From Bacillota bacterium (GTDB taxonomy: Bacteria; Bacillota_I; Bacilli_A; RF39; UBA660), in the NCBI GenBank assembly GCA_015059485.1, contig SVAH01000010.1, positions 1 through 47,303 of the forward strand: 47,303 nt of DNA. The letters run 5' to 3'. The position numbers were made by a program, and so were the translations under genes. The notes beneath the pieces are model-generated. The model searched no databases. It had not been told where the DNA came from and was given only the letters and a program-made list of their open reading frames with translations. Below, piece by piece: positions 106 through 47,303 of this stretch. How positions within the stretch are numbered: the stretch's first letter is position 1; the number at the start of each line of letters is the position of its first letter.

Positions 106-318
106 TTATGACATTGTAGTTTCTTCTAAAAATATTTCATACTCTAATTCTTGTTTTCTATTATCCAGTTTATTATTTTTTTCTTTTATGATTTTCAATA
201 AAGTATTTAGACTTATATTCATTTGTTTTAAATATATTTCTAATTTTATTAAATCAGTCGGTGATAAATATTTAATATTTATTTCTCCACTTATTATTTT
301 TTTATATATTTCTTCCAC
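106..318 (-). CDS. Small coiled-coil-like protein, partner of the giant helicase gene
   Basis: This is a 70-residue charged protein with no recognisable family. It is rich in Lys, Glu, Ile and Asn and probably all helical; there is no signal peptide or membrane segment. The start is GTG at 316-318, preceded by a good ribosome binding site (AGGTGG, 5-nt spacer). The gene overlaps the last 17 bases of the 2230-residue helicase gene in another frame, so translation is probably coupled, and a terminator follows directly. The tight coupling suggests a partner or accessory subunit of the helicase protein; that is inference. The HD-domain giant at 12.3-16.1 kb is likewise followed by a small helical protein gene. 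Confidence 0.7.
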   Translation of the reverse strand: MEEIYKKIISGEINIKYLSPTDLIKLEIYLKQMNISLNTLLKIIKEKNNKLDNRKQELEYEIFLEETTMS

Positions 319-24191: not shown

Positions 24192-24227
24192 GAAAAAAAA
24201 TAGATTACTTTTTATTAGTAATCTATT
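24192..24227. terminator. Bidirectional terminator between vanY-type gene and giant surface gene
   Basis: An 11-bp perfect stem (24199-24209 against 24217-24227), 7-nt loop, A-run on the left and T-rich sequence on the right. It overlaps the stop codon of the giant gene. Confidence 0.8.
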
Positions 24228-27200
24228 TTAATTCACCGTATAAGTAATCTAGTGCTTGTTTAACATTTGATGCACCTGCTGTTGCATTTGAATAAGTTAC
24301 ATCAGATGCTTGATAATATAATTTAGAAATTGTTGCATTTGCTGTCGTTGAATTACCAAGTGAGTCACTACATGTTACTGTATACGTATCATTTTCAGTT
24401 TGACCGCTTAATGTTGCAGTTGATGCAAGAGTGCTACTAGATCCTGCTCTCTTCCATGAATATGTTACTCCACCTACATTTCCATCTGTTGCTGATGCAG
24501 TTAATGAAACACTATTGGCATAAGTTGTTCCAGAAGGAGTATATGCAATAGTAGGTATTGTACATGATGGTGGTGTATTATCAAGATACATATTGGCTGA
24601 TGTTATAGTTCCTGCTGCTAAACTGTTATTTGCTATGTCAGTTATAGCTGATGCATTACAAATATATAGTTTTCCAGCTCCAGTACCACTATTTATGGTA
24701 ATATTTGCTTCTCCATAGCCTCCACCACCTGGAGTTACTGTTGTTGTATTTGGCATTGATGTTGAATTACATGTTGTAACATTACTTGTACTCCATACAT
24801 ATCTAATTGTATATGATGATTCTGAATAGCCAGTAGATCCTAAGTTTTCATATAAAGTTACTTTTCCTGTATGACTTTTTCTGTATGTAGTTCCAGCATA
24901 AGTATCTGTTGAACCATCTGGTACAGTTAATGTCATTGTTGGTTTTGTATTATCTAAATAAGCAGTTGTACTAGCTGATGAATTAGCTGCTAGTGAATTT
25001 CCTGATCTATCAGATATTGCAACTTTTGTACAAATATACAAGCTACCTGCTCCAGTTTGAGAACTAATTGTTACATTTTGAGCAGTTCCTGATGATGCTC
25101 CAGCATTTACTGGTACAGTTACTTTTGAAGTCATTCCACTACATGCTTGAGTACTTGTACCCCATGCATAATAGATATCATAGCTTCCAGCTACTAATCC
25201 AGAACCACCACTATCATTTACATTGATAGAAGCTGTTTTAGATTGAGTATATGTTGTACCATTATTTGCTGGTATTGAAACACTTATTGTTGGCGCATTT
25301 CCATCTACTACTAATGTTCCACTTGTTTTACTTGTCATTGCATTACCTGCTGAATCAGTTAATGCCGATGCTGTTAAAGTTCCTGATGTATTACTTGCTG
25401 GTGCCGTTACAGTATATGTAAATACTCTTGATGCAGAAGTTCCAGAAGCTGTTGGTGTTCCTACTGTTGCAGTAAAGTTTGTTGATTTTGTAATAGTTGG
25501 GGCTGTTGTTGGAACTCCAGAATGTGAATCAGTACATGTCAATGTTATTGTTGATGTATTAGATGTTCCAGATTTTATAAATGCTGGTGTAAAGCTACCC
25601 CATGTACATACAGGTGCTGTATTATCAAGTTTAAATACATTTGAATGAGTATTTGTTACATTTCCAAGTGCATCTGTTGCATATATATGTAAGTAGTAAT
25701 CTCCTGTTGGTGTTGTTCCACTCTTACTTGGAGTACTTATTGTTGCTCCACTTGTAAATGCTGTTCCTGATGTTGCTATATTACTTGGTGTTGTAGCACT
25801 TGTTGACCACATATATTTTAATGTACTTACTGTTGAACATCCTACATCTGCTACAGTTACTGTTGTTGATCTTGATGTTGCATATGTACTATTTCCATTT
25901 GTTCCAAATGTTACATTTGGACCAGATCTATCAATATTTGTTACACTTGCACTACAACTTGTACTATTTTCAAGTCCATCTTTTACATATAGAGTATATG
26001 TCCCATTTTCTGTTATATCAGATACTGTTGGTTTTGTTGTTGCATAAGAACCTGATCCCCATTTATAGTATACTGTTCCATTATGTTCATCTGTTGCTGT
26101 TCCTATTGTTATTGATTTTGATGTTGAACATGTTGATGGCGATGCTGATACAGAACAATTTATTGGTGCCTTATTATCAAATTTATATGTTCCAGTTGAT
26201 ACAACATTTGTTGTTTGACTATTTTGTAGTGTATCTTTTAATGTTACTGGATGTATCCATAAGTAATAACTTCCTGTTAATTCACTTCCTGATACTGTTA
26301 CCTTTGCAGTTGATGCTCCAGCACTATAACTACTTACTGTTCCAGCTGTCCAACTTGTTGGTGTATGAGCAGTATCATTGTATTGACTCCATGCATATTG
26401 GACTGATGCTCCTGTTGCTAAGCCTGATTGTGTATCTCCTATTGTTACTTCTACTGATTTAGTTTTTGCATACGTACTATCTCCTGCTGGCGCTGTTATA
26501 TATGGTGCTGTTCTATCTATTTTTGATATTGTTGCATTTGCTGTTGTTGAATTACCAAGTGAATCACTACATGTTACTGTATATGTATTATTTGCTGTAA
26601 CACTTATTGAGGCTGTTGTTTCTGTTGTATTCCATAAGTAAGTTACTCCTCCAGCACCCCAACTATCATCTGATCCACTAGCTGTTAGTGTTGCACTTGT
26701 TACCCATGAACTTGGTGCTCCACTTATACTACAACTTGGCGCTGTATTATCAAATTTGTATACACCACTTACTACATTTGTTGTTTGACTATTTTGTAAT
26801 GTATCTTTTAATGTTACTGGATGTATCCATAAATACCAAGAACCATTTTTTCCACTTCCTGATGGTACACTCATTGTTGCAGTAGCGGCTCCAGCATTAT
26901 AACTACTTATTGTTCCATCTGTCCAACTTGTTGGTGTATGAGCAGTATCATTGTATTGACTCCATGCATATTGAACTGATGCTCCTGTTGCTAATCCTGA
27001 TTGTGTATCTCCTATTGTTACACTTACAGTTCTATCTTTCTTAGGAGTATTATCTCCTGCTGGTTGAGTTATATATGGTTTTGTTGTATCTATTTTTGAT
27101 ACTGTTACAGATGATGATGTTTGTGAGTTTCCAACTGCATCACTACATGTTACTGTATATGATGTATTTGATGCACTTATTGATGCTGTTGTTGCTCCTG

Positions 27201-30200
27201 TACTCCATAAGTATGTTATTCCTTTTGAATGATCATCTGATGCACTTGCTGTTAATGTTGCACTTGTTACCCATGATGATGGGTTTCCTGTTATGCTACA
27301 ACTTGGCGCTGTATTATCAAATTTATATGTTCCAGTTGATACAACATTTGCTGTTTGACTATTTTGTAATGTATCTTTCAATGTTACTGGATGTATCCAT
27401 AAGTAATAACTTCCTGTTAAATCACTTCCTGATACTGTTACCTTTGCAGTTGAAGCTCCAGCACTATAACTACTTATTGTTCCAGCTGTCCAACTTGTTG
27501 GTGTATGAGCAGTATCATTGTATTGACTCCATGCATATTGGACTGATGCTCCTGTTGCTAAGCCTGATTGTGTATCTCCTATTGTTACTTCTACTGATTT
27601 AGTTTTTGAATAAGTACTATCTCCTGCTGGTGCTGTTATATATGGTTTTGTTGTATCTATCTTTGATACTGTTACAGATGATGATGTTTGTGAGTTTCCA
27701 GCTGCATCACTACATGTTACTGTATATGATGTATTTGATGCACTTATTGATGCTGTTGTTGCTCCTGTACTCCATAAGTATGTTATTCCATTAGCTCCAC
27801 CAGTATCTGTTGATGATGCTGTTAGTGTTGCACTTGTTACCCATGATGATGGGTTTCCTGTTATGCTACAACTTGGTGGTGTATTATCTATTACAAATGC
27901 TCCAGATGTAAATACATCACTATTTCCTACATTATCCTCTGCATATACCCATAAATAACGTGTTCCAGTTACTCCTGATGGTGTAGATACCGATGCTCCA
28001 TTTGATGATAGAGAGTTATTTATTGTTGGCTGAGTTGTTGAACTATCACTCCATGCATATTTTATACTTGATGCTTTTATTCCTGATCCTGTATCACCAA
28101 GTGTTACTGTTGTTGAGTGAGACTGTTTTGCTGTACTATTACCATTAGTTCCAAATGAAATTGTTGGTTTACTAGAATCTACATAACTTACTGTTGCTGA
28201 TGCTTTATTTGCATTTCCAACTGCATCTTTATACCAAGCATAGTATGTACCATTTGCAGATACTTCACTTACTTTTGATGCATAGTCTACTCCAGTAAAT
28301 GTTGTATATGTTGGAGCAGTTGTAGAACTTTGATTTAATCCATATCCAGCTACTCCTGATTGACTATCAGATGCTGCTGAAATTACATAATTCTTTTTAT
28401 CCCATTTAGTAGTATCAAATACAGTTGCATAAGCTAAATCCCATTCAACTGATGTTGTAGAATATCCTGATAATGCAGTTAAATTAAAGAAGTTTGTTGA
28501 TGAGAATGTTCCACTACTTCCGCATTTTGCTTCAAGTAAATATTCTTTCCATTGACCAGTTCCTAAGTTTGATGTAATCCAATTAGCTGAAGCTCCATTT
28601 CCAAACGCATTTGATTGGAAATCTATTTTATATCCAACTGGAATTTTTGCAACTATTCTCGTAACAAATACTTTACTTGCTGCTGATGGTGTTCCAAAAT
28701 AGAATCCTCCAAGTCCTGGTGATGCAGAACCAGCAGTTTTTATATGAATATAATTTGAACCTTCTGGAGTTGTACCACTTAATCTTTGATGTGTTACTAC
28801 TCCGTTTCCATTATTATTATAAACTGCTACACTATTGCTTCCACTTGCAAATGTTGGATCTTTATATAACATTGCTCCAGCATATGTAGAAACTGTTGGA
28901 TTTGTTCTATCTATTTTTGATACTGTTACACTACAACTTGTTTCATTTTCTAGTCCATCTTTTAAATATAATGTATAAGTTCCATTTTCAGTTATTGTTT
29001 GATCTGCTGGTTTTGTTGATGAATAGTTTGACATTACTGTTGTAGTTCCACTAATAGTTTTTGTTAATTTATAATTAACACCATTAGTATCTGTTGCTGC
29101 TGTTACACTCAATGTTTTTGATGTTGTCCAACTATTATTACCAGCTGTTATTGTACATGGACTTGGTGCTGTATTATCAAATTTATATGTTCCACTTGAT
29201 TTATAAATTGATGATGTTGTTGTAGCGGTTCCTAATGTATCTTTAAATGACGTATCTGTTTTTGGTGTTATCCATAAGTAATAACTTCCTGTTAAACCAC
29301 TTCCAGATGCTGTAAATGTTGCTGTTTTTGATCCTGCCGTTGTACTTACTGTTGCTTCTGTCCAACTTGTTGGGGCTGTTGTAGTACTTGTTGACCAACC
29401 ATATTTTAATATATTTCCATTTGCTAATCCAGCATGATCATCTTTTATTGTTACTGTTATGCTCTTAGTTTTTTGATATGTACTATCTCCTGTTAAAGCA
29501 CTTGTATCTACATATGGTCCAGTATTATCTATATAGAATGCATTTGATCTTGATGATGTACTATTTCCTAGTGCATCCTTTCTATATACCCATAAGTAAT
29601 ATGTTCCTGTTTCTGTTGCTTTTGTTATTGTTCCTCCACTTGTGAATGTTGTTCCTGATGTTGCTATATTACTTGGTTCTGATGTACTTGTTGACCACAT
29701 ATATCTATTTTCACTTACTGATGAACATCCATATCCTGAATCTGTTGTTGTTGCTGTTGTTGATACACTCTTTGCATATGCACTATTTCCATTTGTTCCG
29801 AATGTTACTCCTGGGGCTGTTTTATCTAGTGCAAATCCATTTGATTTTGTTGTTGTTGGATTTCCTAAACTATCTTCTGCATATATCCATAAGTAATATG
29901 TTCCTGTTACGTTTGATGGTGTTGATATTGTATCTCCACTTGCAAATGTTGTACTAAATGTTGGTGTTGTTGTATTTGATGTTGACCATGCATATTTTAA
30001 ATTCTTAACTGGTGAACATCCATCTGTTACTGTTACTGTTGTTGATTTTGATGTTGCACATGTTGCTCCATTTGTTCCAAATGTTACACTTGGTCCTGTC
30101 TTATCTATTGTAAATCCGTTTGTATGAGAGTTTGTTACATTTCCTAAACCATCTGTTGTATATATATGTAAGTAATATGTTCCTGATGTTGAATCTGATG

Positions 30201-33200
30201 GTGTACTTATTGTACTTCCACTTGTGAAGTTTGTTCCTGATGTTGCTATATTACTTGGTGTTGAGGTACTTGTTGACCACATATATTTTCTTACACTTAC
30301 TGTTGCATTATGTGAATCTGCTACGGTTACTGTTGTTGATTTGCTTGCTCCACATGATGTACTTCCATTTGTTCCATATGTTACACTTGGACCTGTTTTA
30401 TCAAGTTTAAATACGTTTGTATGAGAATTTGTTACATTTCCTAGTCCATCTGTTGCATATACATGTAAGTAATAATTTCCTGTTGTTGAATCTGATGGTG
30501 TACTTATTGTACTTCCACTTGTAAATGCTGTTCCTGATGTTGCTATATTACTTGGTGTTGAATCGCTTGTTGACCACATATATTTTAATGTACTTACTGT
30601 TGAACATCCTACATCTGCTACAGTTACTGTTGTTGAGTGAGATGTTGCATATGTACTATTTCCATTTGTTCCATATGTTACGCCTGGTCCTGTTTTATCA
30701 ATTGTTGTAACACTTGTACTGCAACTTGTATTATTTCCAAGACCATCTTTTACATATAATGTATATGTTCCATTTTCTGTTACAGATTTATCAGATTTCG
30801 TTGCTGACCAGCTTGAATTATTCCATGAATAATTTACTGTTCCATTATGTGAATCTGTTGCTGTTCCCATCGTCAATGTTTTTGATGTTGAACATGTACT
30901 TGTATTTCCACCTATTGAACATCCTTCTGGTGCTGTATTATCAAATTTATATGTTCCAGTTGATACAACATTTGTTGTTTGACTATTTTGTAGTGTATCT
31001 TTTAATGTTACTGGATGTATCCATAAGTAATAACTTCCTGTTAATTCACTTCCTGATACTGTTACCTTTGCAGTTGATGCTCCAGCACTATAACTACTTA
31101 CTGTTCCAGCTGTCCAACTTGTTGGGGCTGTTGTATTACTTGTACTCCATGCATATTGTACTGATGATCCTGTTGCTAATCCTGATTGTGTATCTCCTAT
31201 TGTTACTTCTACTGATTTAGTTTTTGAATAAGTACTATCTCCTGCTGGCGCTGTTATGTATGGTGCTGTTCTATCTATTTTTGATACTGTTACACTACAA
31301 CTTGTAGAATTTCCTGTTCCAACATTATCTTTTAAGTATAGAGTATATGTTCCATTTTCAGTTATTGTTCTATCTGCTGGTTTTGTTGATGTATAATCTA
31401 CTACTGTTGTAGTTGTTCCACCAATAGTTTTTGTTATTTTGTAATTTACACCATTAGTGTCTGTTGCAGTGCCAACACTCAATGTTTTTGATGCTGCCCA
31501 ACTATCATTTCCTGCTGTTATTGAGCAAGGACTTGGTGGTGTATTATCAAAATAATATGGTCCAAATTTTTGAGTTGTTGTTTTGTTTCCAACAGTATCC
31601 TTCATCGTATTTGAAGTTTTTTCTGTTACCCATAAGTAATATGTTCCAGTAAGTCCACTTGCACTTGCGTCAAATATTTTTGTGTTTGATGTTGTTCCTG
31701 CTGTATAACTTGCTACTGTTGCATTTGTATAACTTGTAGGTTCTGTTGTATTTGATGTTGACCATCCATATTTAGCAGTTATTCCTGATGCTAAACCACT
31801 TGCACTATCTTGTAAGCTTACTTCAACTGTTTGTGATTTAACATATGATGATAAGTTAGCAGGTGATGCTGTCATTGTTGGTGCATCTAAATCATATCTA
31901 ATATTAAATGCATCTGATGATTCTGACTTATTACCAGCTGCATCTACAGCTCTAAAATAATATGTCTGATTTCTATTTCTCAATGTCCATGGTTCTGAAC
32001 CTGAATATGTATTTCCACTTTTTGATATTCCATTACCCCATAAAGACAAGTCTCCCCAACTATTTTCATCGTTTGGAGTTTGTGTTTGTTGAATTTTTAC
32101 TACTCCTGATTCTGATTCGTTTACACCACTTGGAACTAAATCTGTAGTTGAAATAATTGTATATACTTGTTTATTTGTATATGTTCCACTTGTATATGCT
32201 GTATCATCACTAGCAAATTTTGCAGCATATGTTGGTTTAGCTGGTTTAGTTCTATCTATTCCATTTATATCAAGTGAACTTCCAGTTTTACTATTTACAC
32301 CATCTGCAGTTTTTGCAACTACTGTTCCATTTGATGTAAATGTTAATGTTGGATTACTTTCTGTACTATACCATGTATTTGCTGTTAATGTTGTTCCTGC
32401 AGCTACTGATGTACTACAAGTATATGAAGAAGTAGTATTTTGTGTACAAGATTTTACTGCTACATTCGATGTTGCTGTTCCTGTAACTTTAAATAATTTA
32501 GTTCCACCTGCACAAGAATTTGAAGATGCATAGTTTATTGTTGTTGTTTTACTTTGAGCATATCCACTAGCTACACTATAATCTGGTGTACATAGTGTTA
32601 AAGGTGATGCTGTTATTACGTCTTCATCAGTATTTTGTGCTCCATTTTTACAAACTAATTTTAAACTATGATTTCCTTCAGTTACTTGTCCAGCAGTATC
32701 TGTATAAGTATGAGTTTGTGTTGCTGCTGATGTTGTATATTTTTTATCTAAGTCTCCATCATAGTAGAATTGATATTCTACTACTCCTGATTCTTCATCT
32801 GCACAACTACCTTCTACAGTAATTGATTTAGATGTTTTTCCAGTTTCTGTAATTGAAACTTCAGGCTTTGTTGAATCTATTTTTGTAACATTTACAGAAC
32901 AACTTGCACTATTTTGTAGTGAATCTTTTACTGTTACTGTATATGTTCCATTTGCTGAAATACTTGTTGCAGCTGTTGTTGCTCCAGTATTCCATGAATA
33001 TGTTACACCATTAGCTCCACCAGTATCAGTTGCACTTGCTGTTAGTGTTGCACTTGTTGTCCATGATGATGGATTACCACTAATAGAACAACTTGGTGGT
33101 GTGTTATCTAATTTAAATGCTCCAGATTGTAATGTTTTTGTATTTCCAACATTATCTGCTGCATATATCCATAAATAGAATGTTCCAGTTCCATCTGCTT

Positions 33201-36200
33201 TTGAGATTGTTGCATGATTATTAGCGTCTAATGTAAATGCTGTTCCACCTGTTGTTGCTAAATTTGATGGTGCTGTTGTATTTGATGTTGACCATGCATA
33301 TTTTAGTGTTGTTGCATTTAATCTTGAATTTGTATCTGTTACTGTTACTTGTGTACTTTGAGATTTGCTTACTGTTGTATTTGCATTTGGTGAAAATGAT
33401 ATTTCAGGCTCTGTTTTATCTATTTTAATTTCTATAGATTGTTCTTGTGATGGATTTCCTAGTTTATCTTTTGCTCTATATGTTACTGTTTCATCCATAC
33501 TAGAATCAAATGTTACAACATTTCCTGTGATTTTAGTCCATGTATTTCCATTTTTTACTTCATAATAATCTATACCACTACCAGAACCATCATTTCCAAC
33601 TAATGTTAATGTTACATCATTTTTTGTCCATGTTCCTGATTGGTATGATGTTGATATTGAAAGTGTTGGATCATCAACATCAATTTTTGTAACATCTGCA
33701 TAACAACTTGCACTATTATTTAAAGAATCTTTTACTGTTACTGTATATCTTCCATTTGTTGTTATTCCACTTAATGCAGCTGTTGTTGCTCCAGTATTCC
33801 ATGAATATGTTACTCCACCAGCATGACCATCAGTAGCACTTGCTGTTAGTGTTGCACTTGATGCCCAATCAGATGGATTACCACTAATAGAACAACTTGG
33901 TGCTGTATTATCTAATTTAAATGTTGAACTAGATTTAACAATATCTGTTTTAGAATTTGTTGCAACATCTTTTAATGTTACTGGTTTAACCCATAAGTAA
34001 TATGATCCTGTATAAGTTGGTCCATATTTAAAGTCACTACCAGATGTTGCTGCATTTGGATAGAATGTTCCATTTACTAAATCATATAATCCAGCTCTTC
34101 CAGTTGACTTTTCATAACAAGGTATGAAGTCACGAACTACTACACCATTATCTATTAATCTAAAACTATATAAATCCATTGATGAAATAATTTGAATAGC
34201 TTCATTTGTAGCACCACGTGATGTATTATGATTTGCAAAAATAAATATGTTACCTACTGTATTTGCTACATTACTTGTCAAACTTGCATTTTGTTTTGTC
34301 ATAACTGAACCAGTATATGTTGTACTGAGAGTTTGTACTCCGTCCTTATAGATTTTCAAATTTTTATCTGCTGTCGTTTTTATTTTTAATTGGAAATTTT
34401 GCCCTATTGCTGCATTAAATGAACCTTGACTAGTAGTTCCAATATACATGCCATAACTTCCATTTTGTCCATGCATAACACCTGCAAAATATCTATTGCT
34501 ATCTGAAATATATTCTTCATTTCCGAATAATGATTGCCATGTTGAATTAGTGACTATTTTACCACTAAAGTCTATTTCTATGTTTTCATGTTGCCAATAA
34601 TATCCAGTATCAATATATTGTGTTCCTGTTGATTCAATATATTCTACTTGTTGGTATTCAGATGGTAATAAATTTGTTTTTGCTTCAAATGTTACTGCAT
34701 CTGTTGTACCTGCTGTATATGAAGGATTTACTTCTGTCCATAAATTTGGTTCTGTTGATGTTGAAGTACTCCATCCATATTGTAAGTTTGAACCTGTTGC
34801 TAGTCCACTATCAAGATCTCTTATTGATACATTTACTGTTTTTTCTTTTTCGTATGTATTATCACCATTTGATCCTAAAGTAATAGCTGGATTAGTCTTA
34901 TCTATTTTTAATTCAATAGATCTTTCTTCTGATACATTTCCTAATTTATCTTTTGCTCTATATGTTACTGTTTCATCCATGTTAGAATCATATGTTACTG
35001 AGCTTCCAGTTACTTTTGTCCATGTATTTCCATTTTTTACTTCATAATAATCTACACCAATTCCTGCATCATTTCCATTTAGTGTTAATGTTACATCATC
35101 TTTTGTCCATGTTCCTGATGTATATGATGTTGATATTGAGAAACTTGGTCCTTCTCTATCTATTCCAGATACATTTGCAGTACATCCAACTGTATTTCCA
35201 AGTTTATCTTTTACATATGCTCTATATTCACCGTTTGCTTCAACTGTTAATTTATTATTATTTGAATAGTTTGTTCCATCCCATGAATATGTGATGTCTC
35301 CAGAATGGCTATCTGTTGATGTAATAGTTAATTCTTTGCTTGTTGCATATCCGCTTGGACTTATTGATATATTACATGTTGGGGCTGTGTTATCAAGTTT
35401 AAATGCTCCAGATTGAACTGTTTTATTATTTCCAACGCTATCTTCTGCATATATCCATAAGTAATAATCTCCTGTTAAGTTTGTAGGTGTTTCAATAGTT
35501 GCCTCATTTGTAAATGCTGTTCCTCCAGTTGTTGCTAAATTAGCTGGTGCTGTTTCACCATTAGTACTCCATGCATATTTTAATTTATTTGTAGCTACTC
35601 CTGATGCTGTATCATTTACTGTTACTTGTGTGCTTTGAGTTTTTGCATATGTTGTATTTGCATTTGGATTAAATGTTATTGTTGGTTTTGCTTTATCTAT
35701 TTTTAATGCTATAGATCTTTCTTCTGATACATTTCCTAGTTTATCTTTTGCTCTATATGTTACTGTCTCATCTATACTAGAATCATATGTTACTGAGCTT
35801 CCAGTTACTTTTGTCCATGTATTTCCATTTTTTACTTCATAGTAATCTACACCAATTCCTGCATCATTACCATTTAGTGTTAATATTACATCATCTTTTG
35901 TCCATGTTCCTGATGTATATGATGTTGATATTGAGAAGCTTGGCCCTTCTCTATCTATTTTAGTTATATCTACATAACAACTTGCACTATTATTTAAAGA
36001 ATCTTTTACTGTTACTGTATATCTTCCATTAGTTGTTATTCCACTTAGTTCAGCTGTTGTTGCTCCAGTATTCCATAAGTAAGTTACTCCACCAACATGA
36101 TCATCAGTAGCGCTTGCTGTTAATGTTGCACTTGTTGTCCATGATGATGGATTACCACTAATAGTACAACTTGGTGGTGTGTTATCTAATCTAAATGCTC

Positions 36201-39200
36201 CTGATTTAGTAGTTTTAGAATTTCCAACACTATCTTCTGCATATATCCATAAGTAATATGTTCCTGTTAAATTTGCTGGTGTTTCAATAGTTGCTTCATT
36301 TGTAAATGCTGTTCCACCTGTTGTTGCTAAGTTAGATGGTGCTGTTTCACCATTAGTACTCCATGCATATTTTAATTTATTTGAAGCGACTCCTGATGCT
36401 ATATCTGTTACTGTTACTTGTGTGCTTTGAGTTTTTGCATATGTTGTATTTGCATTTGGATTAAATTCAACAGTTGGTTTTGTTTTATCTATTTTAATTT
36501 CTATAGATCTTTCTTCTGATACATTTCCTAGTTTATCTTTTGCTCTATATGTTACTGTTTCATCCATGCTAGAATCATATGTTACTGAACTTCCAGTTAC
36601 TTTTGTCCATGTATTTCCATTTTTTACTTCATAGTAATCTACACCAATTCCTGCATCATTTCCATTTAGTGTTAATGTTACATCATCTTTTGTCCATGTT
36701 CCTGATGTATATGATGTTGATATTGAGAAGCTTGGTCCTTTTCTATCAACTTTTGTTACATCAACACTACATGTTGAACTATTGTTAAGTGAATCTTTTA
36801 CTGTAACTGTATATGTTCCATTTGATGTTACCTCAATTGATGATGTAGTTTCTGTTGTATTCCATAAGTATGTAATTCCTCCAGCTCCTGCATCTGTTGC
36901 TACTGCAGTTAGTGTTTTAGTTAATTCATAACTATTTGAATTAATTGATACATTACATGTTGGGGCTGTATTGTCTAAATTGAAAGCCCCAGATTGAACT
37001 GTACTTGAATTTCCTAAACTATCTTCTGCATATATCCATAAGTAGTATGTACCATCTAAATTATTTGGAGTTGTTATTGTAGCCTTTGAATCTGTTAATG
37101 TAAATGCAGTACCACCTGTTGTTGCTAAATTAGTTGGTGCTGTTTCACCATTATTACTCCATGCATATTTTAATGTATTTGAAGCAAGTCCAGAATTTGC
37201 ATCTGTTATAGTTACTTCTGTTGATTGAGTTTTTGCATATGTTGTATTTGTATTTGGTGCAAATGTTACGCTAGGGGAAGTTTTATCTATTTTTAATGCT
37301 ATAGATCTTTCTTCTGATACATTTCCTAGTTTATCTTTTGCTCTATATGTTACTGTTTCATCTATTGTAGAATTATATGTTACTGAACTTCCTGTTACTC
37401 TTGTCCATGTATCATTATTTTTTACTTCATAGTAGTCTACTCCAACACCTGTTCCATCATTTCCATTTAGTGTTAGTGTTACATCATTTTTTGTCCATGT
37501 TCCAGCAGTATATGATGTTGTTATTGAGAAGCTTGGTCCTTCTCTATCTATTTTAGTTATATCTACGCTACAACTAGTTGTATTTCCAAGTGCATCTTTA
37601 ACATATCCTACATAAGTTCCATTTGATGTAATTGATTGTGTGTTATCACTTCCATAGTTTGTTCCATCCCATGAATATGATACTCCTCCAACATGTTCAT
37701 CTGACGAATTAATAGTTAATACTTTATTCAATGTATATCCATTTGAATCTATTGATATATTACAACTTGGTGGTGTATTATCTAAATAAAATTCTTTTGA
37801 TGAAAGTATAGCGCTATTTCCAACTGTATCTTCTATATATACCCATAAATACCAGTTATTACCAGAATCATTTGATTTTACAATAGTATCTTCATTTGTG
37901 AAACTAGTTGTAAATGTATTTGCAGCTGGGGCTTCTGAACTTTGAGTCCATTGATATTTAAGTTTATCTGAAGCTACCCCTGATGCTAAATCACTTACTG
38001 TTACTTTTAATGCTTGACTCTTAGCATATATTTTATTTTCATCTGGTTCGAATACAGCAACTGGGGCTGTTTTATCTATTTTTACTTCAAAGCTTCTTTC
38101 TTCTGATATATTTCCTATTCTATCAATCGCTCTAAATGTTAATGTTTCATTCATATTTGAAGTAAAGTTTAGAATATTTTCTGTAGTAGTCCATGTACCA
38201 TTTTCATTTATTTCGTAATGATCTACACCACTACCAGCTCCATCATCACCAACTAATGTTAATGTTACATTATTTTTTGTCCATGTTCCTGATGTTGCAT
38301 TTGATGTTATTGAAAGTGTTGGAGCTGTTTTATCTATTTTATTTACTGAAACATCACATGTATTTGTATTTCCAACAGCATCTTTTACATAAGCAGTATA
38401 TGTTCCATTTGTATCTACTACTAAATCTGCATTAGTTCCATAAGTTGTTCCATCCCATGAATATGGATTATCTGAAAGTCCTGATTCATTATCTGAACCT
38501 GTAACTTTTAAAGTTGCTGATGCAGCAAAACTACTTGGATTTCCACTAATAGTACAGCTAGGAGCTGTTTTATCTACATATACATTAACTTCTCCTACGC
38601 AAGTTCTTTCATTGCCAACTTTATCTTTTATTACATAACTTAAGTCTGTATTTTTGATTGTTTCATTGTATGTATGCACATTATATGTGATTGTTTCATT
38701 AGCAGATGCTGTTTCACATCCACTTTGTGAATCATCACATGTTACTGTAATTGTTCTGTTTTCTTTTGTCCATTCTGTACTTTGTCCACCATAGTTTCCA
38801 CAAGTTGGGGCTGTTTTATCTATTTTTATTTCAAGAGTTCTTTCTTCTGATATATTTCCAACAGCATCTGTAGTTCTAAATGAAACTGTTTCATTCATAT
38901 CACTACTAAATGTTACTTCATCTTCTACTTCTTGCCATTCATTGTTTCTATTTATTTCGTATTTTGCTACACCTGAGTCTGCATCTGTTGAATTAATTGA
39001 AACTGTAACGTTATCTTTTGTCCAAGAACCAGCAGTGTAATCAGTTGAAATATTAATTGTTGGTGCTGTCCTATCAATTCCTAATATATCTCTTGCTGAT
39101 GCTGCTTCTTCATTTGTTCCATCGTTAACTTTTGCTATAACTGTTCCATTTGATGTAAATGTTAATGTTATATCATTATTTGTTTTATACCAAGTATTAG

Positions 39201-41100
39201 CTATAATTTGATTTGCTGCTGTATCTGAGCATGTATAATTTCCATTATTTTCACTACATGGGTATATAGTTGTTTCAGTAGAAACTTCTCCAGTAGTTTT
39301 AAATAAGTAATTTCCTTCTCCACTATAATCAATTGTTACATTTTTGCTTTGTGCATAACCGCTTGGAGAACTATATGTTGGTACTACTAAGCTTTCTGTT
39401 TCAATTTGTTTTTCATCAGTTCCAGTAAGTCCTGCTTCATTTGTACAAACTAATTTATATGTATGATTACCAGTTGTTAGGCCATTTAATGTATATTCTC
39501 TTGTAATATCGCTTGTTTCAATAGTTTCCTTTAATGTGTTATCTAAATATATTTGATATTTAGATATTGGTGATTCTAAATCACTACATCCTAAAGTAAG
39601 TGTTGTAGAATTACTTGTTTTTGATTTTAATGTTACTGATGAATTAGGATCAGTAGTATCTACTGTATCAATTGTTATGACATCTAATCTCTTAGTATTA
39701 ACTCCATCTGTAACTAATGATTCAAGAGTTCCGTTTGTTCTATAACTTAATTTAACTGGTGATGATAATAATTTATAATATGTACCTTCAGTTAAACTTG
39801 TTGTTGTTATGCTATCATCGCAATCAAAGCATTCATTTACAAGGGTACATGTTGCTACTTCATTATCTGCATCAGCTACCCCTGATACTCTAAATATGTA
39901 ATCGCCAGCAGTATTATGACTTAATGTTATTTCTTCTGTTGTATCATAGCTTTCATCAACTTCTATACTATCAATTACTAAAACATTTGGTGAATTTGTA
40001 TCAGAACTTGACGCTCTATATCCAAACGCATTTGAACAAGACATTGTAAACTGATGGTTTCCTTCAGTTACATGTTCATAAGTATATTCAATTTCATTTT
40101 CTGATGAATTTCTACTAGCAATTAAAGTTCCATCTTTATAGAAATAGTATTGACTAATTCCTGAATCTGTATCACTACATCTAACTTTATATGTTAAAGA
40201 ATTAGTTGTTTTAGACATAAATTCTATACTATTTTGAGGAGCTGTTGCATCTACATCTAGACTATCCCATCCAGCTATTGCACTAAAATTATGACTTCCA
40301 TCTGCTGTAACTTCTAGTATATATTTGTCAACTTTCCCTATGCCTATTGATTGATTTGTTAAAAGATATAGTAAATCTCCACCACTTGGAATTGTTCCGC
40401 TTTGAACTACAACCCCATTCTTTTTAAGAGTATAGTTCAATCCTTCATATTCATTAACAACATTTTGTAGTTTAACATTATATCTTGAATTTGTTGTTGA
40501 AGAAATATTTTTCACTTCAAATTTTAATCTTTTATTTGTATTAGATACTATTGCATAATCTTCATAAGTATATACTAACGCATCTACATTATTCACTAGA
40601 TCAATATTAACTGTTCCAGCAAATTCATTAGAACTATTAAAAGTTTGCTTTTCATCTGTCGTTACATATTCAAGTTTTAAAGTATAGTTTTTTGTTTCTC
40701 CAGGATTAATTGTTAAATTTGTAAAAATATATGCATCATCACTTGTTTTAGGTAATCTTGCTTGATCTGTAAGTTTTTGACCATCACAATATAAAGTATA
40801 TAAAACATCATCAGAAAAAGTATTAGTTATATCACTAATTCTAATATTATAAGTTAATACATCATCTGAATCACTTTTTACAGAGAAAGTTTTTTCAACT
40901 GATGTTCCAGGTAAAAAATTTGATACATTAACTTCTTTTGTATCTTCAAATATTAAAGCTAATTTCTTAGTTTTTAAATCTGTCTCTGTTTCATTAATTT
41001 TTTCTACATTTCCTTTATAATAAGCAAATGATAAGCTAAAAGCAATTATTACTACAATTAAAAGACAACCTAAAGCTGCCAATTTTCTTATTTTTTTCAT
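24223..41100 (-). CDS. Giant secreted surface protein with tandem Ig-like repeats and LamG-like insert
   Basis: 5625 residues in one unbroken frame of 16.9 kb. It starts with a signal sequence (MKKIRKLAALG, then LLIVVIIAFSLSFAYYK). Next comes a TasA/camelysin-like beta domain (to about 160). A long series of bacterial Ig-like domains follows, marked by recurring IDKTAPT, LDNTPPSC and YYLWIYAEDSVGN. In the N-terminal half they form 240-260-residue super-units: DYYEVKNGNTWT, then KYAWSTNGETAP, then SCTISGNPSSW. Inserts are a LamG-like domain (about 2135-2360, EYIESTGTQYIDTGYYW) and a jelly-roll-like segment (about 4070-4240). It ends with SNVKQALDYLYGELK, a motif seen in phage tail and prepilin-like surface proteins. 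No LPXTG or S-layer anchor is seen. Promoter and SD (GAGGTG) are its own. Likely an adhesin or stalk. Confidence 0.88.
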   Translation of the reverse strand: MKKIRKLAALGCLLIVVIIAFSLSFAYYKGNVEKINETETDLKTKKLALIFEDTKEVNVSNFLPGTSVEKTFSVKSDSDDVLTYNIRISDITNTFSDDVLYTLYCDGQKLTDQARLPKTSDDAYIFTNLTINPGETKNYTLKLEYVTTDEKQTFNSSNEFAGTVNIDLVNNVDALVYTYEDYAIVSNTNKRLKFEVKNISSTTNSRYNVKLQNVVNEYEGLNYTLKKNGVVVQSGTIPSGGDLLYLLTNQSIGIGKVDKYILEVTADGSHNFSAIAGWDSLDVDATAPQNSIEFMSKTTNSLTYKVRCSDTDSGISQYYFYKDGTLIASRNSSENEIEYTYEHVTEGNHQFTMSCSNAFGYRASSSDTNSPNVLVIDSIEVDESYDTTEEITLSHNTAGDYIFRVSGVADADNEVATCTLVNECFDCDDSITTTSLTEGTYYKLLSSPVKLSYRTNGTLESLVTDGVNTKRLDVITIDTVDTTDPNSSVTLKSKTSNSTTLTLGCSDLESPISKYQIYLDNTLKETIETSDITREYTLNGLTTGNHTYKLVCTNEAGLTGTDEKQIETESLVVPTYSSPSGYAQSKNVTIDYSGEGNYLFKTTGEVSTETTIYPCSENNGNYTCSDTAANQIIANTWYKTNNDITLTFTSNGTVIAKVNDGTNEEAASARDILGIDRTAPTINISTDYTAGSWTKDNVTVSINSTDADSGVAKYEINRNNEWQEVEDEVTFSSDMNETVSFRTTDAVGNISEERTLEIKIDKTAPTCGNYGGQSTEWTKENRTITVTCDDSQSGCETASANETITYNVHTYNETIKNTDLSYVIKDKVGNERTCVGEVNVYVDKTAPSCTISGNPSSFAASATLKVTGSDNESGLSDNPYSWDGTTYGTNADLVVDTNGTYTAYVKDAVGNTNTCDVSVNKIDKTAPTLSITSNATSGTWTKNNVTLTLVGDDGAGSGVDHYEINENGTWTTTENILNFTSNMNETLTFRAIDRIGNISEERSFEVKIDKTAPVAVFEPDENKIYAKSQALKVTVSDLASGVASDKLKYQWTQSSEAPAANTFTTSFTNEDTIVKSNDSGNNWYLWVYIEDTVGNSAILSSKEFYLDNTPPSCNISIDSNGYTLNKVLTINSSDEHVGGVSYSWDGTNYGSDNTQSITSNGTYVGYVKDALGNTTSCSVDITKIDREGPSFSITTSYTAGTWTKNDVTLTLNGNDGTGVGVDYYEVKNNDTWTRVTGSSVTYNSTIDETVTYRAKDKLGNVSEERSIALKIDKTSPSVTFAPNTNTTYAKTQSTEVTITDANSGLASNTLKYAWSNNGETAPTNLATTGGTAFTLTDSKATITTPNNLDGTYYLWIYAEDSLGNSSTVQSGAFNLDNTAPTCNVSINSNSYELTKTLTAVATDAGAGGITYLWNTTETTSSIEVTSNGTYTVTVKDSLNNSSTCSVDVTKVDRKGPSFSISTSYTSGTWTKDDVTLTLNGNDAGIGVDYYEVKNGNTWTKVTGSSVTYDSSMDETVTYRAKDKLGNVSEERSIEIKIDKTKPTVEFNPNANTTYAKTQSTQVTVTDIASGVASNKLKYAWSTNGETAPSNLATTGGTAFTNEATIETPANLTGTYYLWIYAEDSVGNSKTTKSGAFRLDNTPPSCTISGNPSSWTTSATLTASATDDHVGGVTYLWNTGATTAELSGITTNGRYTVTVKDSLNNSASCYVDITKIDREGPSFSISTSYTSGTWTKDDVILTLNGNDAGIGVDYYEVKNGNTWTKVTGSSVTYDSSIDETVTYRAKDKLGNVSEERSIALKIDKAKPTITFNPNANTTYAKTQSTQVTVNDTASGVATNKLKYAWSTNGETAPANLATTGGTAFTNEATIETPTNLTGDYYLWIYAEDSVGNNKTVQSGAFKLDNTAPTCNISISPSGYATSKELTITSTDSHSGDITYSWDGTNYSNNNKLTVEANGEYRAYVKDKLGNTVGCTANVSGIDREGPSFSISTSYTSGTWTKDDVTLTLNGNDAGIGVDYYEVKNGNTWTKVTGSSVTYDSNMDETVTYRAKDKLGNVSEERSIELKIDKTNPAITLGSNGDNTYEKEKTVNVSIRDLDSGLATGSNLQYGWSTSTSTEPNLWTEVNPSYTAGTTDAVTFEAKTNLLPSEYQQVEYIESTGTQYIDTGYYWQHENIEIDFSGKIVTNSTWQSLFGNEEYISDSNRYFAGVMHGQNGSYGMYIGTTSQGSFNAAIGQNFQLKIKTTADKNLKIYKDGVQTLSTTYTGSVMTKQNASLTSNVANTVGNIFIFANHNTSRGATNEAIQIISSMDLYSFRLIDNGVVVRDFIPCYEKSTGRAGLYDLVNGTFYPNAATSGSDFKYGPTYTGSYYLWVKPVTLKDVATNSKTDIVKSSSTFKLDNTAPSCSISGNPSDWASSATLTASATDGHAGGVTYSWNTGATTAALSGITTNGRYTVTVKDSLNNSASCYADVTKIDVDDPTLSISTSYQSGTWTKNDVTLTLVGNDGSGSGIDYYEVKNGNTWTKITGNVVTFDSSMDETVTYRAKDKLGNPSQEQSIEIKIDKTEPEISFSPNANTTVSKSQSTQVTVTDTNSRLNATTLKYAWSTSNTTAPSNLATTGGTAFTLDANNHATISKADGTGTFYLWIYAADNVGNTKTLQSGAFKLDNTPPSCSISGNPSSWTTSATLTASATDTGGANGVTYSWNTGATTAATSISANGTYTVTVKDSLQNSASCSVNVTKIDSTKPEVSITETGKTSKSITVEGSCADEESGVVEYQFYYDGDLDKKYTTSAATQTHTYTDTAGQVTEGNHSLKLVCKNGAQNTDEDVITASPLTLCTPDYSVASGYAQSKTTTINYASSNSCAGGTKLFKVTGTATSNVAVKSCTQNTTSSYTCSTSVAAGTTLTANTWYSTESNPTLTFTSNGTVVAKTADGVNSKTGSSLDINGIDRTKPAKPTYAAKFASDDTAYTSGTYTNKQVYTIISTTDLVPSGVNESESGVVKIQQTQTPNDENSWGDLSLWGNGISKSGNTYSGSEPWTLRNRNQTYYFRAVDAAGNKSESSDAFNIRYDLDAPTMTASPANLSSYVKSQTVEVSLQDSASGLASGITAKYGWSTSNTTEPTSYTNATVASYTAGTTSNTKIFDASASGLTGTYYLWVTEKTSNTMKDTVGNKTTTQKFGPYYFDNTPPSPCSITAGNDSWAASKTLSVGTATDTNGVNYKITKTIGGTTTTVVDYTSTKPADRTITENGTYTLYLKDNVGTGNSTSCSVTVSKIDRTAPYITAPAGDSTYSKTKSVEVTIGDTQSGLATGSSVQYAWSTSNTTAPTSWTAGTVSSYSAGASTAKVTVSGSELTGSYYLWIHPVTLKDTLQNSQTTNVVSTGTYKFDNTAPEGCSIGGNTSTCSTSKTLTMGTATDSHNGTVNYSWNNSSWSATKSDKSVTENGTYTLYVKDGLGNNTSCSTSVTTIDKTGPGVTYGTNGNSTYATSHSTTVTVADVGCSTVSTLKYMWSTSDSTPSNIATSGTAFTSGSTISTPSDSTTGNYYLHVYATDGLGNVTNSHTNVFKLDKTGPSVTYGTNGSTSCGASKSTTVTVADSHNATVSVRKYMWSTSTSTPSNIATSGTNFTSGSTISTPSDSTSGTYYLHIYTTDGLGNVTNSHTNGFTIDKTGPSVTFGTNGATCATSKSTTVTVTDGCSPVKNLKYAWSTSNTTTPTFSTTFASGDTISTPSNVTGTYYLWIYAEDSLGNPTTTKSNGFALDKTAPGVTFGTNGNSAYAKSVSTTATTTDSGYGCSSVSENRYMWSTSTSEPSNIATSGTTFTSGGTITKATETGTYYLWVYRKDALGNSTSSRSNAFYIDNTGPYVDTSALTGDSTYQKTKSITVTIKDDHAGLANGNILKYGWSTSTTTAPTSWTEATVSTTAGSKTATFTASGSGLTGSYYLWITPKTDTSFKDTLGTATTTSSIYKSSGTYKFDNTAPSPCTITAGNNSWTTSKTLSVTAATDTNGVNYKLTKTISGTTTVMSNYSSTKPADQTITENGTYTLYLKDGLENETSCSVTVSKIDRTNPTVSTYAGAMLYKDPTFASGSNSVAVYNNNGNGVVTHQRLSGTTPEGSNYIHIKTAGSASPGLGGFYFGTPSAASKVFVTRIVAKIPVGYKIDFQSNAFGNGASANWITSNLGTGQWKEYLLEAKCGSSGTFSSTNFFNLTALSGYSTTSVEWDLAYATVFDTTKWDKKNYVISAASDSQSGVAGYGLNQSSTTAPTYTTFTGVDYASKVSEVSANGTYYAWYKDAVGNANKASATVSYVDSSKPTISFGTNGNSTAKQSHSTTVTLGDTGSGIKASSIKYAWSDSSTTQPTINNSLSSNGASVSTPSGVTGTRYLWVYAEDNVGNSDVFTSGAFVIDNTPPSCSITGNPSSWVTSATLTASSTDTGGANGITYLWSTGATTASISASNTSYTVTCSDAAGNSQTSSSVTVSKIDTTKPYITAPAGDSTYSKTKSVEVTIGDTQSGLATGASVQYAWSQYNDTAHTPTSWTAGTISSYSAGASTAKVTVSGSDLTGSYYLWIHPVTLKDTLQNSQTANVVSTGTYKFDNTAPSCSITGNPSSWVTSATLTASASDDHSKGITYLWSTGATTASISASNTSYTVTCSDAVGNSQTSSSVTVSKIDTTKPYITQPAGDNTPKKDRTVSVTIGDTQSGLATGASVQYAWSQYNDTAHTPTSWTDGTISSYNAGAATATMSVPSGSGKNGSWYLWIHPVTLKDTLQNSQTTNVVSGVYKFDNTAPSCSISGAPSSWVTSATLTASGSDDSWGAGGVTYLWNTTETTASISVTANNTYTVTCSDSLGNSTTANATISKIDRTAPYITAPAGDSTYAKTKSVEVTIGDTQSGLATGASVQYAWSQYNDTAHTPTSWTAGTVSSYSAGASTAKVTVSGSELTGSYYLWIHPVTLKDTLQNSQTTNVVSTGTYKFDNKAPINCSVSASPSTCSTSKSITIGTATDEHNGTVYYKWGSGSYATTKPTVSDITENGTYTLYVKDGLENSTSCSASVTNIDRSGPNVTFGTNGNSTYATSRSTTVTVADVGCSTVSTLKYMWSTSATTPSNIATSGTAFTSGATISTPSKSGTTPTGDYYLHIYATDALGNVTNTHSNVFKLDNTAPVCTWGSFTPAFIKSGTSNTSTITLTCTDSHSGVPTTAPTITKSTNFTATVGTPTASGTSASRVFTYTVTAPASNTSGTLTASALTDSAGNAMTSKTSGTLVVDGNAPTISVSIPANNGTTYTQSKTASINVNDSGGSGLVAGSYDIYYAWGTSTQACSGMTSKVTVPVNAGASSGTAQNVTISSQTGAGSLYICTKVAISDRSGNSLAANSSASTTAYLDNTKPTMTLTVPDGSTDTYAGTTYRKSHTGKVTLYENLGSTGYSESSYTIRYVWSTSNVTTCNSTSMPNTTTVTPGGGGYGEANITINSGTGAGKLYICNASAITDIANNSLAAGTITSANMYLDNTPPSCTIPTIAYTPSGTTYANSVSLTASATDGNVGGVTYSWKRAGSSSTLASTATLSGQTENDTYTVTCSDSLGNSTTANATISKLYYQASDVTYSNATAGASNVKQALDYLYGELK
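26190..27660 (-). repeat. Second repeat group in the giant surface gene
   Basis: A different Ig-like super-unit (containing GDTQSGLATGASVQYAWSQY and YLWIHPVTLKDTLQNSQT) is present in three adjacent near-identical copies here. A further copy lies near 30940-31260. DNA identity between copies is very high over several hundred bases. Confidence 0.75.
33420..38890 (-). repeat. Tandem repeats of about 790 bp in the giant surface gene
   Basis: The same block (ending CTTTCTTCTGATACATTTCC on the plus strand) recurs near 34920, 35710, 36500, 37300 and 38090, about 790 bp apart, with related copies near 33430 and 38830. Each unit encodes three Ig-like domains. The gap between the copies at 33430 and 34920 is larger because it holds the LamG-like insert. 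Some adjacent copies are nearly identical in DNA, so recombination and copy-number change are likely. Confidence 0.8.
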
Positions 41101-46011: not shown

Positions 46012-46040
46012 AACTTCCAAAATATGGAAGTTTTATTTTT
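46007..46040. terminator. Bidirectional terminator between DUF378 gene and DGR template
   Basis: A 13-bp perfect stem (46007-46019 against 46025-46037), 5-nt loop, A-rich on the left and TTTTTAT on the right. It ends the DUF378 transcript and could also define the 3' end of a minus-strand template RNA. Confidence 0.8.
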
Positions 46041-46046
46041 ATATTA

Positions 46047-46199
46047 AGGTGCTAGTACTAATCTGAAACCGAAGGAGCTAACCGCTCCACCCGTGTTGTT
46101 GTTGAAGTTGAAAGGTCCTGCAAGGACAACGTTGTTGTAATTGCCGCCTCTACCCGCCCAAGGGTTACCGGAGTTCACGAAGTTAGAATTGTCAACATA
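46047..46199 (-). repeat. DGR template repeat (TR)
   Basis: A 153-bp GC-rich, non-coding copy of the last 51 codons of the adjacent target gene, aligned without gaps to 46468-46620. Read in the target frame it is loaded with Asn codons (11 AAT/AAC, e.g. GGNYNN and FNFNNNTGG) and ends in a TAA. Upstream the frame meets TAA within about ten codons and has no start. All 11 Asn codons differ in the target and only at A positions. These are hallmarks of a template repeat of a diversity-generating retroelement, in which template RNA is reverse transcribed with random misreading of adenines. A tandem GTTACTCTT doublet lies just 5' of it. Confidence 0.85.
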
Positions 46200-46276
46200 A
46201 AGAGTAACAAGAGTAACTTTTTATAACAACTTGTAGCCTACATTTATATTAATTAATAAATGCCATATTTTATTTT

Positions 46277-46308
46277 GTACCATTACCACTCAGTCGTGGT
46301 AATGGTAC
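46277..46308. other. 13-bp hairpin between TR and VR
   Basis: GTACCATTACCAC at 46277-46289 pairs perfectly with 46296-46308, loop TCAGTC. It is followed by TTTTTCTTT on the plus strand, so it looks like a plus-strand terminator although no plus-strand gene ends here. It may instead be part of the template RNA structure. Confidence 0.6.
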
Positions 46309-46322
46309 TTTTTCTTTATCCC

Positions 46323-46354
46323 CACTTCCCGCCGAAAAAAGAGTGCGGGAAGTG
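46323..46354. other. GC-rich 10-bp hairpin between TR and VR
   Basis: CACTTCCCGC at 46323-46332 pairs with GCGGGAAGTG at 46345-46354 across a 12-nt A-rich loop. It is unusually GC-rich for this genome. Confidence 0.6.
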
Positions 46355-46414
46355 ATATTTAAGTTCTTTTTTCTATCTATTTTTTATCTGAATTTCATAT
46401 GTTCTTTTTCTATC

Positions 46415-46434
46415 CTTTTGCCCGAAAGCAAAAG
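46415..46434. other. 7-bp hairpin downstream of VR
   Basis: CTTTTGC pairs with GCAAAAG around CCGAAA, the second hairpin after the target gene stop. Confidence 0.5.
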
Positions 46435-46439
46435 AGCTA

Positions 46440-46464
46440 GACTATATGCTAAACGCATATAGTC
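46440..46464. promoter_or_regulatory. DGR homing hairpin directly after VR
   Basis: GACTATATGC (46440-46449) pairs perfectly with GCATATAGTC (46455-46464), 5-nt loop, and the stem starts at the base next to the target stop codon. In the Bordetella phage DGR a hairpin/cruciform a few bases past the VR is needed for efficient retrohoming; position and size match that role. Confidence 0.7.
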
Positions 46465-47303
46465 CTATGGGGCAACCACGAGGCGGAAACCGAGGATGCC
46501 ATACGCTCCACCCGTGACGTCGCCGAAGCTGAAAGGTCCTGCAAGGACACCGTAGCTGTAATCGCCGCCTCGAATGAACCAAGGGTAACCTGAGACCACG
46601 AAGTCAGAATAGTCAGCATACCAATTATTATGATGTCTTACGCTACTATCTCCATCAGCATAATCATAAAACGGTCCCATTTCTCCAGTTGCATCTCCAA
46701 GTATTCTTTTACTATAATCATAATTATTTGCTGATGCACCATATACATCAAAGTATTTTGCATCATAATTTGCAATTGTACTTGCATCAAATCCACTTGA
46801 ACCTAGCGTTGTATCTCTATATGATGCCATATATTCATGGGCACCACCACTCATGTCATATATACCTGTTATGTTTCCTGTTGTACTAGCTTTAACACCA
46901 GTTGTTGTATTATAGCTTAAAGTTTTACTTGAGTCTGTCCCATATGTTCCTGGATACGTACTTTGATCTGTTCCATCCACTGCTGCATATCCAGTTAAAT
47001 AACTTGAATTATTATTTATTCTTATATCTTCACAAGTTCCATTTGTACATCTCCCATATGCTGAGTGATAAAGGTAAGAAACTGCTCCCCATTCAGTATT
47101 CTTCATCATATGGGAATTGTTATCTCTTTTATAGTTATATCCTAATTCAAAGAATGTTTTTACTGTTTGATTTCTAAGTGATGTTTGACTTGGTTTAACT
47201 GTTAAAGCAGAAGTTGATCCTGTTGTTTCAAATTTTGCTACCCATAATCCATTTGTATTCATACTTATGAATGCTGGATGTGTCATATATTTGTTATCTG
47301 CAC
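46465..47303 (-). CDS. DGR target protein, C-type-lectin/FGE-sulfatase-like fold (5' end beyond window)
   Basis: The frame is open through the right edge; the Met at 47286 is internal (ADNKYMTHPAF precedes and spans it), so the true start lies outside. The visible 279 residues resemble FGE-sulfatase/C-type-lectin surface proteins: LNGLWVAKFETTGS-like start, MMKNTEWGAVSYLYHSAYG, ITGIYDMSGGAHEYMA, and the end WFIRGGDYSYGVLAGPF followed by GFRLVVAP. This fold is the known scaffold of DGR variable proteins, which display changed residues on a stable ligand-binding face. The variable residues lie in the last 50 codons. The protein probably sits on the cell surface; the N-terminal anchor is out of view. 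Confidence 0.88.
   Translation of the reverse strand, partial: ADNKYMTHPAFISMNTNGLWVAKFETTGSTSALTVKPSQTSLRNQTVKTFFELGYNYKRDNNSHMMKNTEWGAVSYLYHSAYGRCTNGTCEDIRINNNSSYLTGYAAVDGTDQSTYPGTYGTDSSKTLSYNTTTGVKASTTGNITGIYDMSGGAHEYMASYRDTTLGSSGFDASTIANYDAKYFDVYGASANNYDYSKRILGDATGEMGPFYDYADGDSSVRHHNNWYADYSDFVVSGYPWFIRGGDYSYGVLAGPFSFGDVTGGAYGILGFRLVVAP
46468..46620 (-). other. DGR variable region (VR)
   Basis: The last 51 codons of the target gene. Against the template, the 11 Asn codons have become Tyr, Asp, Val, Tyr, Asp, Ser, Tyr, Ser, Gly, Asp and Val by 14 changes, all at adenines, with every third base kept. AGA to CGA (codon 17) adds one more. Codons 15, 16, 24, 40 and 42 also differ at non-A bases. 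The 3' end is GC-rich (GGTTTCCGCCTCGTG) while the template has GGTTTCAGATTAGTA, as expected for an IMH versus IMH* pair. Confidence 0.85.

Follow-up and report, generated by a model that had tools for sequence, protein, structure and literature searches.

The window analysed here, a stretch of 47,303 bp, is contig C35 of a 1.41-Mb genome that was assembled in 35 contigs and is 74% complete. Its last segment carries, on the minus strand, the C-terminal part of a gene targeted by a diversity-generating retroelement (DGR) and a non-coding repeat of the 3' end of this gene. The target ORF (46465..47301; 278 codons), whose 5' end lies beyond the contig, closes with a variable repeat (VR), hereafter VR35 (46468..46620), inside which an IMH-like block, CGCCTCGTGGTTGCCC (46470..46485, minus strand), is common to VR35 and to the variable and template repeats, VR15 and TR15, of another contig, C15. 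Immediately 3' of the stop codon is found a 25-bp inverted repeat, GACTATATGCGTTTAGCATATAGTC (46440..46464, minus strand), a candidate target hairpin or cruciform, and the stop codon, this hairpin, a spacer and the leader of a template repeat (TR) together form 268 bp (46200..46467, minus strand) leading to the non-coding copy, TR35 (46047..46199, minus strand), which has a TR-like core and differs from TR15 at 24 sites. Within about 12 bp past TR35, a terminator-like inverted repeat, AAAACTTCCAAAATATGGAAGTTTT (46012..46036), occupies the place expected for a 3' spacer and is followed by a convergent DUF378 gene.

The segments 46047-46199 and 46468-46620 align without gaps over 153 bp each, at an offset of 421 bp and both on the minus strand. 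A sequence-only reading of this DNA had described such a pair, and alignment reproduced it, together with the assignment of one copy to the end of an ORF open at the contig end and of the other to non-coding DNA. All 11 AAY codons of the non-coding copy are indeed altered in the gene, through 14 adenine substitutions. By contrast, the statement that substitutions hit only adenines is true solely for the AAY codons counted, since 8 further adenine changes and 16 non-adenine changes lie outside them, the latter including GCGGGT to TTCATT and GTTAGCTCC to TATGGCATC. From TR35 to VR35 over all 153 positions, 22/38 adenines and 16/115 other bases are changed (Fisher p = 3e-7), so that the proposed count of adenine against other changes upholds an enrichment far above chance and not adenine exclusivity. 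Sixteen non-adenine changes make this pair an outlier, as RT-adjacent TR/VR pairs of relatives show 0-2 as a rule, the exceptions being template-template pairs or other repeats. Both hallmarks of a self-contained DGR are thus missing from the window: the local TR leaves these 16 changes, and there is no reverse transcriptase (RT) near TR and VR.

Indeed, an RVT_1 profile search of the genome returned one RT, over the Pfam cut-off and located on C15, and none on the window contig, while DNA and protein searches brought up another TR-like copy, on C15, as well as eight paralogs of the target, distributed over different contigs. The C15 locus is organized as a target gene (C15:16928-18268), the template copy TR15 (C15:16510-16662, minus strand), a MutS domain I protein (MutS-I, MSL; C15:15910-16320), Avd (C15:15553-15909; NF033474 at 83 bits for a cut-off of 80, PF22296 at 73.6 bits for a cut-off of 40), the RT (C15:14537-15580; 347 aa) and then a YhcG-type nuclease. 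Inspection of the RT by eye showed the motif IGNYTSQ, which we take to be a hallmark of DGR RTs; its PADLOC matches were generic only.

TR15 accounts for VR35 in a way that the adjacent copy does not. Between them, 18/38 adenines and 0/113 other bases are changed before the last two bases (p = 4e-13), and over the full length the only non-adenine changes (2/115) are these final two bases; for VR15, the corresponding counts are 17/38 and 3/115. VR35 and VR15 have 7 adenine changes in common and differ at 16 TR-adenine sites plus one other site, a pattern whose natural reading would be common descent followed by independent rewriting. The theoretical coding capacity of TR15 is about 3e19 proteins, and adenine changes can reach no stop codon. 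Given the adenine-only fit of VR35 to the template of a complete DGR that holds the sole RT found in the genome, VR35 was most likely written in trans by TR15, and the window gene is, as judged from its sequence, a genuine DGR target. The earlier proposal of DGR mutagenic homing acting on a putative C-terminal lectin-type domain in a low-GC gut Bacilli genome is thereby corroborated, with the full DGR residing on C15; the wrong template had been picked because the VR was paired with its nearest repeat. No second significant match to the TR15 spacer DNA was obtained in the genome. As the assembly is incomplete, another template or RT may be missing from it; moreover, a target gene is cut off by the contig end in both C35 and C15, so that these loci could be chromosomal neighbours. 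The sequence-only reading had also considered a mobile host element, of which there is no sign, the neighbouring genes being chromosomal (for example, RNase Y, RNase J, FtsK and M16 peptidases). A phage origin was likewise rejected, viral contigs having given just two RT matches, at 30-32% identity.

The eight target paralogs are 78-88% identical, and comparing their VRs with TR15 positions 0-134 showed 17-22 of the 38 adenines changed in each. Non-adenine changes number 0 in VR35 and 1 in VR15, then 5, 10, 11 and 14 in the middle four, where they fall mostly at third codon positions, and finally 31 and 34; the preference for adenines reaches significance in six VRs, the exceptions being VR31 and VR6 (p about 0.07-0.08). 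We read these repeats as targets last written at different times, from fresh to decayed. A profile of the target family had as its sole PDB match 5vf4 (E = 3e-5), over profile residues 8-162 and hence outside the VR; 5vf4 is TaqVP, the DGR variable protein of Thermus aquaticus (PMC6328139), a likeness at the sequence level. As for a putative C-type lectin fold, the FGE-sulfatase match of the target was below cut-off and an AlphaFold prediction from 11 sequences was set aside at a pLDDT of 32. The N-terminus of one paralog known in full length weakly resembles Peptidase_M73/TasA, and that of a relative looks pseudopilin-like by eye; a location of target proteins in surface fibres is weakly suggested.

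How the window gene may have come under the control of a distant DGR is recorded in the sequences that follow it. The spacing between VR and TR is 421 bp at both C35 and C15, and the 268-bp spacer is near-identical at the two loci (3 differing sites, all in its first 16 bp), with the target genes upstream of it being 77-93% identical per 100 bp. TR35 retains every adenine of codons 20-36, as expected of a template. From GGTTTC onward, it reads AGATTAGTACTAGCACCTTAA, an ending of the type seen in VR32, VR9 and VR14; this old target-gene 3' end, kept as the end of TR35 (GGTTTCAGATTAGTACTAGCACCTTAA; 46044..46070, minus strand), is also present after the RT stop on C15, where, reading SFRLVLAP* in another frame, it overlaps the RT stop codon (L034:6500-6580). 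The C15 sequence past the RT matches the region downstream of the C32 target, and it looks as if the C15 cassette had been inserted at the IMH of a target. In both C35 and C15, DGR sequence meets the old target 3' end at GTTTC. TR35 positions 117-126 (GTT AGC TCC TTC), the AGC of which is also present in VR32 and VR11, look like an adenine-mutated old VR. At the window target itself is found CGCCTCGT, a sequence kept at the VR and TR 3' ends of relatives, many of which also have inverted repeats after the VR. In BPP-1, an inverted repeat after the IMH is required, and IMH and hairpin suffice experimentally to redirect homing (PMC3240598).

The sequence that follows the TR, the 3' spacer, serves in BPP-1 both to recruit the RT-Avd complex and to prime cDNA synthesis (PMC12875486), and in relatives of the present DGR the ~130-200 bp after the TR are strongly conserved. 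A covariance model of this spacer (R1), built on only 18 base pairs and giving rough E-values, scored 106 bits for the TR15 spacer, itself part of the training set, and 79 bits for a genus-mate outside the training set, and it found no match in the window. If the spacer acts here as it does in BPP-1, TR35, which lacks it, probably does not function as a template. The adjacent non-coding copy was accordingly discarded as the template on three grounds, namely its 16 non-adenine changes, the missing 3' spacer and the old-target 3' end.

We consider it likely that the window is a remote target of the chromosomal DGR on C15, and that this target was recruited via a 421-bp unit of which TR35 is the remnant. 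RNA from TR15 would be reverse-transcribed with errors at adenines, and the mutated cDNA would then replace in trans the 3' end of the window gene, yielding VR35, whose substitution pattern is directly observed. Beforehand, as the anatomy of the locus suggests, a 421-bp unit comprising IMH, hairpin, spacer, leader and TR would have recombined into the 3' end of the target, which would thereby have gained the IMH and hairpin of the DGR and become addressable. TR35 would be the right-hand junction of this event, i.e., TR sequence running into the old target 3' end; on C15, the whole cassette would have been inserted into a target by a similar joining at GTTTC. We infer the order of these recombination events from the junctions.

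Several other explanations deserve consideration. That 46047-46199 serves as template for the VR beside it would agree with its orientation on the same strand, with a 421-bp spacing like that of the C15 DGR, with 22/38 changed adenines and with a leader identical to that of TR15; as this copy leaves 16 non-adenine changes where TR15 fits far better, has no 3' spacer and shares contig C35 with no RT, we regard this as very improbable. It is improbable, to a lesser degree, that TR35 works as a second template for other targets in trans, its 3' end being matched to AGATTAG-type ends. By adenine changes alone, TR35 accounts for none of the eight VRs compared, at least 15 non-adenine changes being needed in each, and TR35 has no spacer, whereas array units have one and free-standing templates have another form; on the other hand, its 3' end resembles those of VR32, VR9 and VR14, and related genomes possess several templates per enzyme as well as templates away from the RT.

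A deletion offers an unlikely but more credible route to the same arrangement: C35 would have lost MSL, Avd and RT from a full cassette, from the GTTTC in the TR to that following the RT. Since the C15 cassette likewise runs into this old target end, such a deletion would directly yield the structure of TR35, but two events are needed instead of one for the insertion of a 421-bp unit, and TR35 positions 117-126 resemble an adenine-mutated old VR and not TR15. The interpretation of VR35, like that of TR35 as a remnant, is unchanged if this deletion took place. Finally, ordinary paralogs shaped by diversifying selection or gene conversion, with no DGR action at all, would be in line with the oldest paralogs, VR31 and VR6, having no significant adenine bias. 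As 18 adenine and 0 non-adenine changes separate VR35 from a non-coding template over 151 sites, and as Avd and RT are in the genome, we give this last explanation almost no credence.

RT homologs at E <= 1e-60 were present in 33/291 genomes of the family, and 80 loci were named, from MAGs labelled Bacilli, Erysipelotrichaceae, Tenericutes, Clostridia and similar. Tandem arrays of templates occur in these relatives: L114:477-4527 (CANQZD010000005.1) has 11 tandem leader-TR-spacer units between one target VR and MSL-Avd-RT, L095:3315-5145 has 4 template units and L103:581-1226 has 2, while spacer counts suggest ~13 templates in L123, ~10 in L110, ~8-9 in L160 and 4 in L158, the arrays spanning from 2 to about 13 complete templates per enzyme. 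If one template switch is allowed, the VRs of L114, L095 and L115 need 1, 0 and 0 non-adenine changes, respectively, as compared to 6, 5 and 2 if none is allowed, all being best fits obtained on a small number of loci. As controls, array units treated as mosaics of other units required 2-9 non-adenine changes in L114 and 5-8 in L095, the fit of L115, which has two units only, being without control. L095 is a clear mosaic case and L114 beats all its controls by little; some VRs look like adenine-only mosaics of two templates. For the VR of L103, no adenine-only mosaic was resolved, 4-9 non-adenine changes being left, and L167 holds a near-identical, hardly mutated pair. The Rfam RT-14 RNA (RF02921) matches TR 3' spacers in L114, with two units above the gathering score, and its matches at L114:4009-4144 and 1009-1144 coincide with the DGR template 3' spacer, a hint at what this RNA family may do. 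A search of the TR15 spacer gave no RT-14 match at E up to 1, and this spacer is linked to the RT-14-matching spacers solely through covariance model R1. Elsewhere among the relatives, L076 and L077 (G107:C14) are identical 6,959-bp DGR copies, VR included, ~130 kb apart on one contig, perhaps as a result of recent duplication or of an assembly artefact; being identical throughout, they carry no information for a natural comparison of variation in VR and TR.

Templates were also encountered as free-standing units. In G151, RT and Avd are found without adjoining TR or target, and a motif search, which returned nothing when the pattern was reversed, detected 7 template spacers in G151 and 14 in G005, a genome of the same genus. 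A non-coding TR-like sequence stands before every one of these spacers, in two cases cut short. The templates are scattered over many contigs (L186-L193 and L202-L222), with a single RT located elsewhere, and the flanking sequence is common to the copies compared, both upstream and downstream, and closes with a stem and a T-run. A VR on C12 of G151 fits the template on C23 with 15 adenine changes and 1 non-adenine change, the RT being on C37; most other VRs of G151 fit none of the templates compared. A protein search of G005 listed many more candidate short-frame copies. In G005, G021, G160 and G205, up to 36-60 TR/VR-like matches per genome were counted, many corresponding to long-ORF ends, and they point to large paralogous target families.

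The usual picture of a DGR has a single template and a single enzyme acting on one or a few targets close by. Here, template and enzyme are on a different contig from the target, and nearest-repeat pairing of a VR gives the wrong template in such genomes. By itself, the window is a further DGR with an unusual remnant, and it is the architecture of the family that sets it apart. We lean slightly towards poly-template DGRs in this family of gut Bacilli, in which one RT/Avd would serve several complete template RNA genes (leader, TR, spacer), arrayed in tandem or scattered over the chromosome, and many paralogous targets in trans, with recombining templates adding to adenine errors, and of which the window would exemplify target recruitment by a unit bearing IMH and hairpin that leaves a broken template behind. 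The window also documents, at the sequence level, a way in which DGR control over a gene may arise through the gain of an IMH and a hairpin. In relatives, mosaic VRs and the presence of several complete templates for one enzyme would lend combinatorial diversity on top of point mutagenesis.

With the BPP-1 system (Mtd, TR, Avd, bRT), the present DGR shares adenine-only changes from TR to VR, Avd, RT, an IMH-like block followed by an inverted repeat, and a spacer 3' of the TR (PMC3240598, PMC12875486). It differs by being chromosomal, by having its TR before the MutS-I protein and Avd, and by a target located, together with a broken TR copy, on another contig. Remote targets are known from the Treponema denticola DGR, which likewise has several paralogous targets, some of them far from the core DGR (PMC4891356), but here a duplicated spacer-TR piece adjoins the remote target, and the accessory gene is of the MutS-I type and not HRDC. 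DGRs with more than one TR are already known, and more than one TR-like copy per genome is thus a feature in common (PMC6642488), whereas the relatives studied here have tandem leader-TR-spacer arrays, free-standing template genes and VRs that fit mosaics. The open full texts that we searched describe neither tandem template arrays nor free-standing template genes, although this does not prove that no description exists. TaqVP resembles the target family in sequence outside the VR, and the RT-14 RNA matches template spacers of L114, with no match to that of TR15 at E up to 1.

Two further large ORFs of the window, both on the minus strand, were noted: one of 5,625 aa (24223-41100) with weak matches to Ig-like domains, and one of 2,230 aa (302-6994) with ResIII/DEAD helicase domains.
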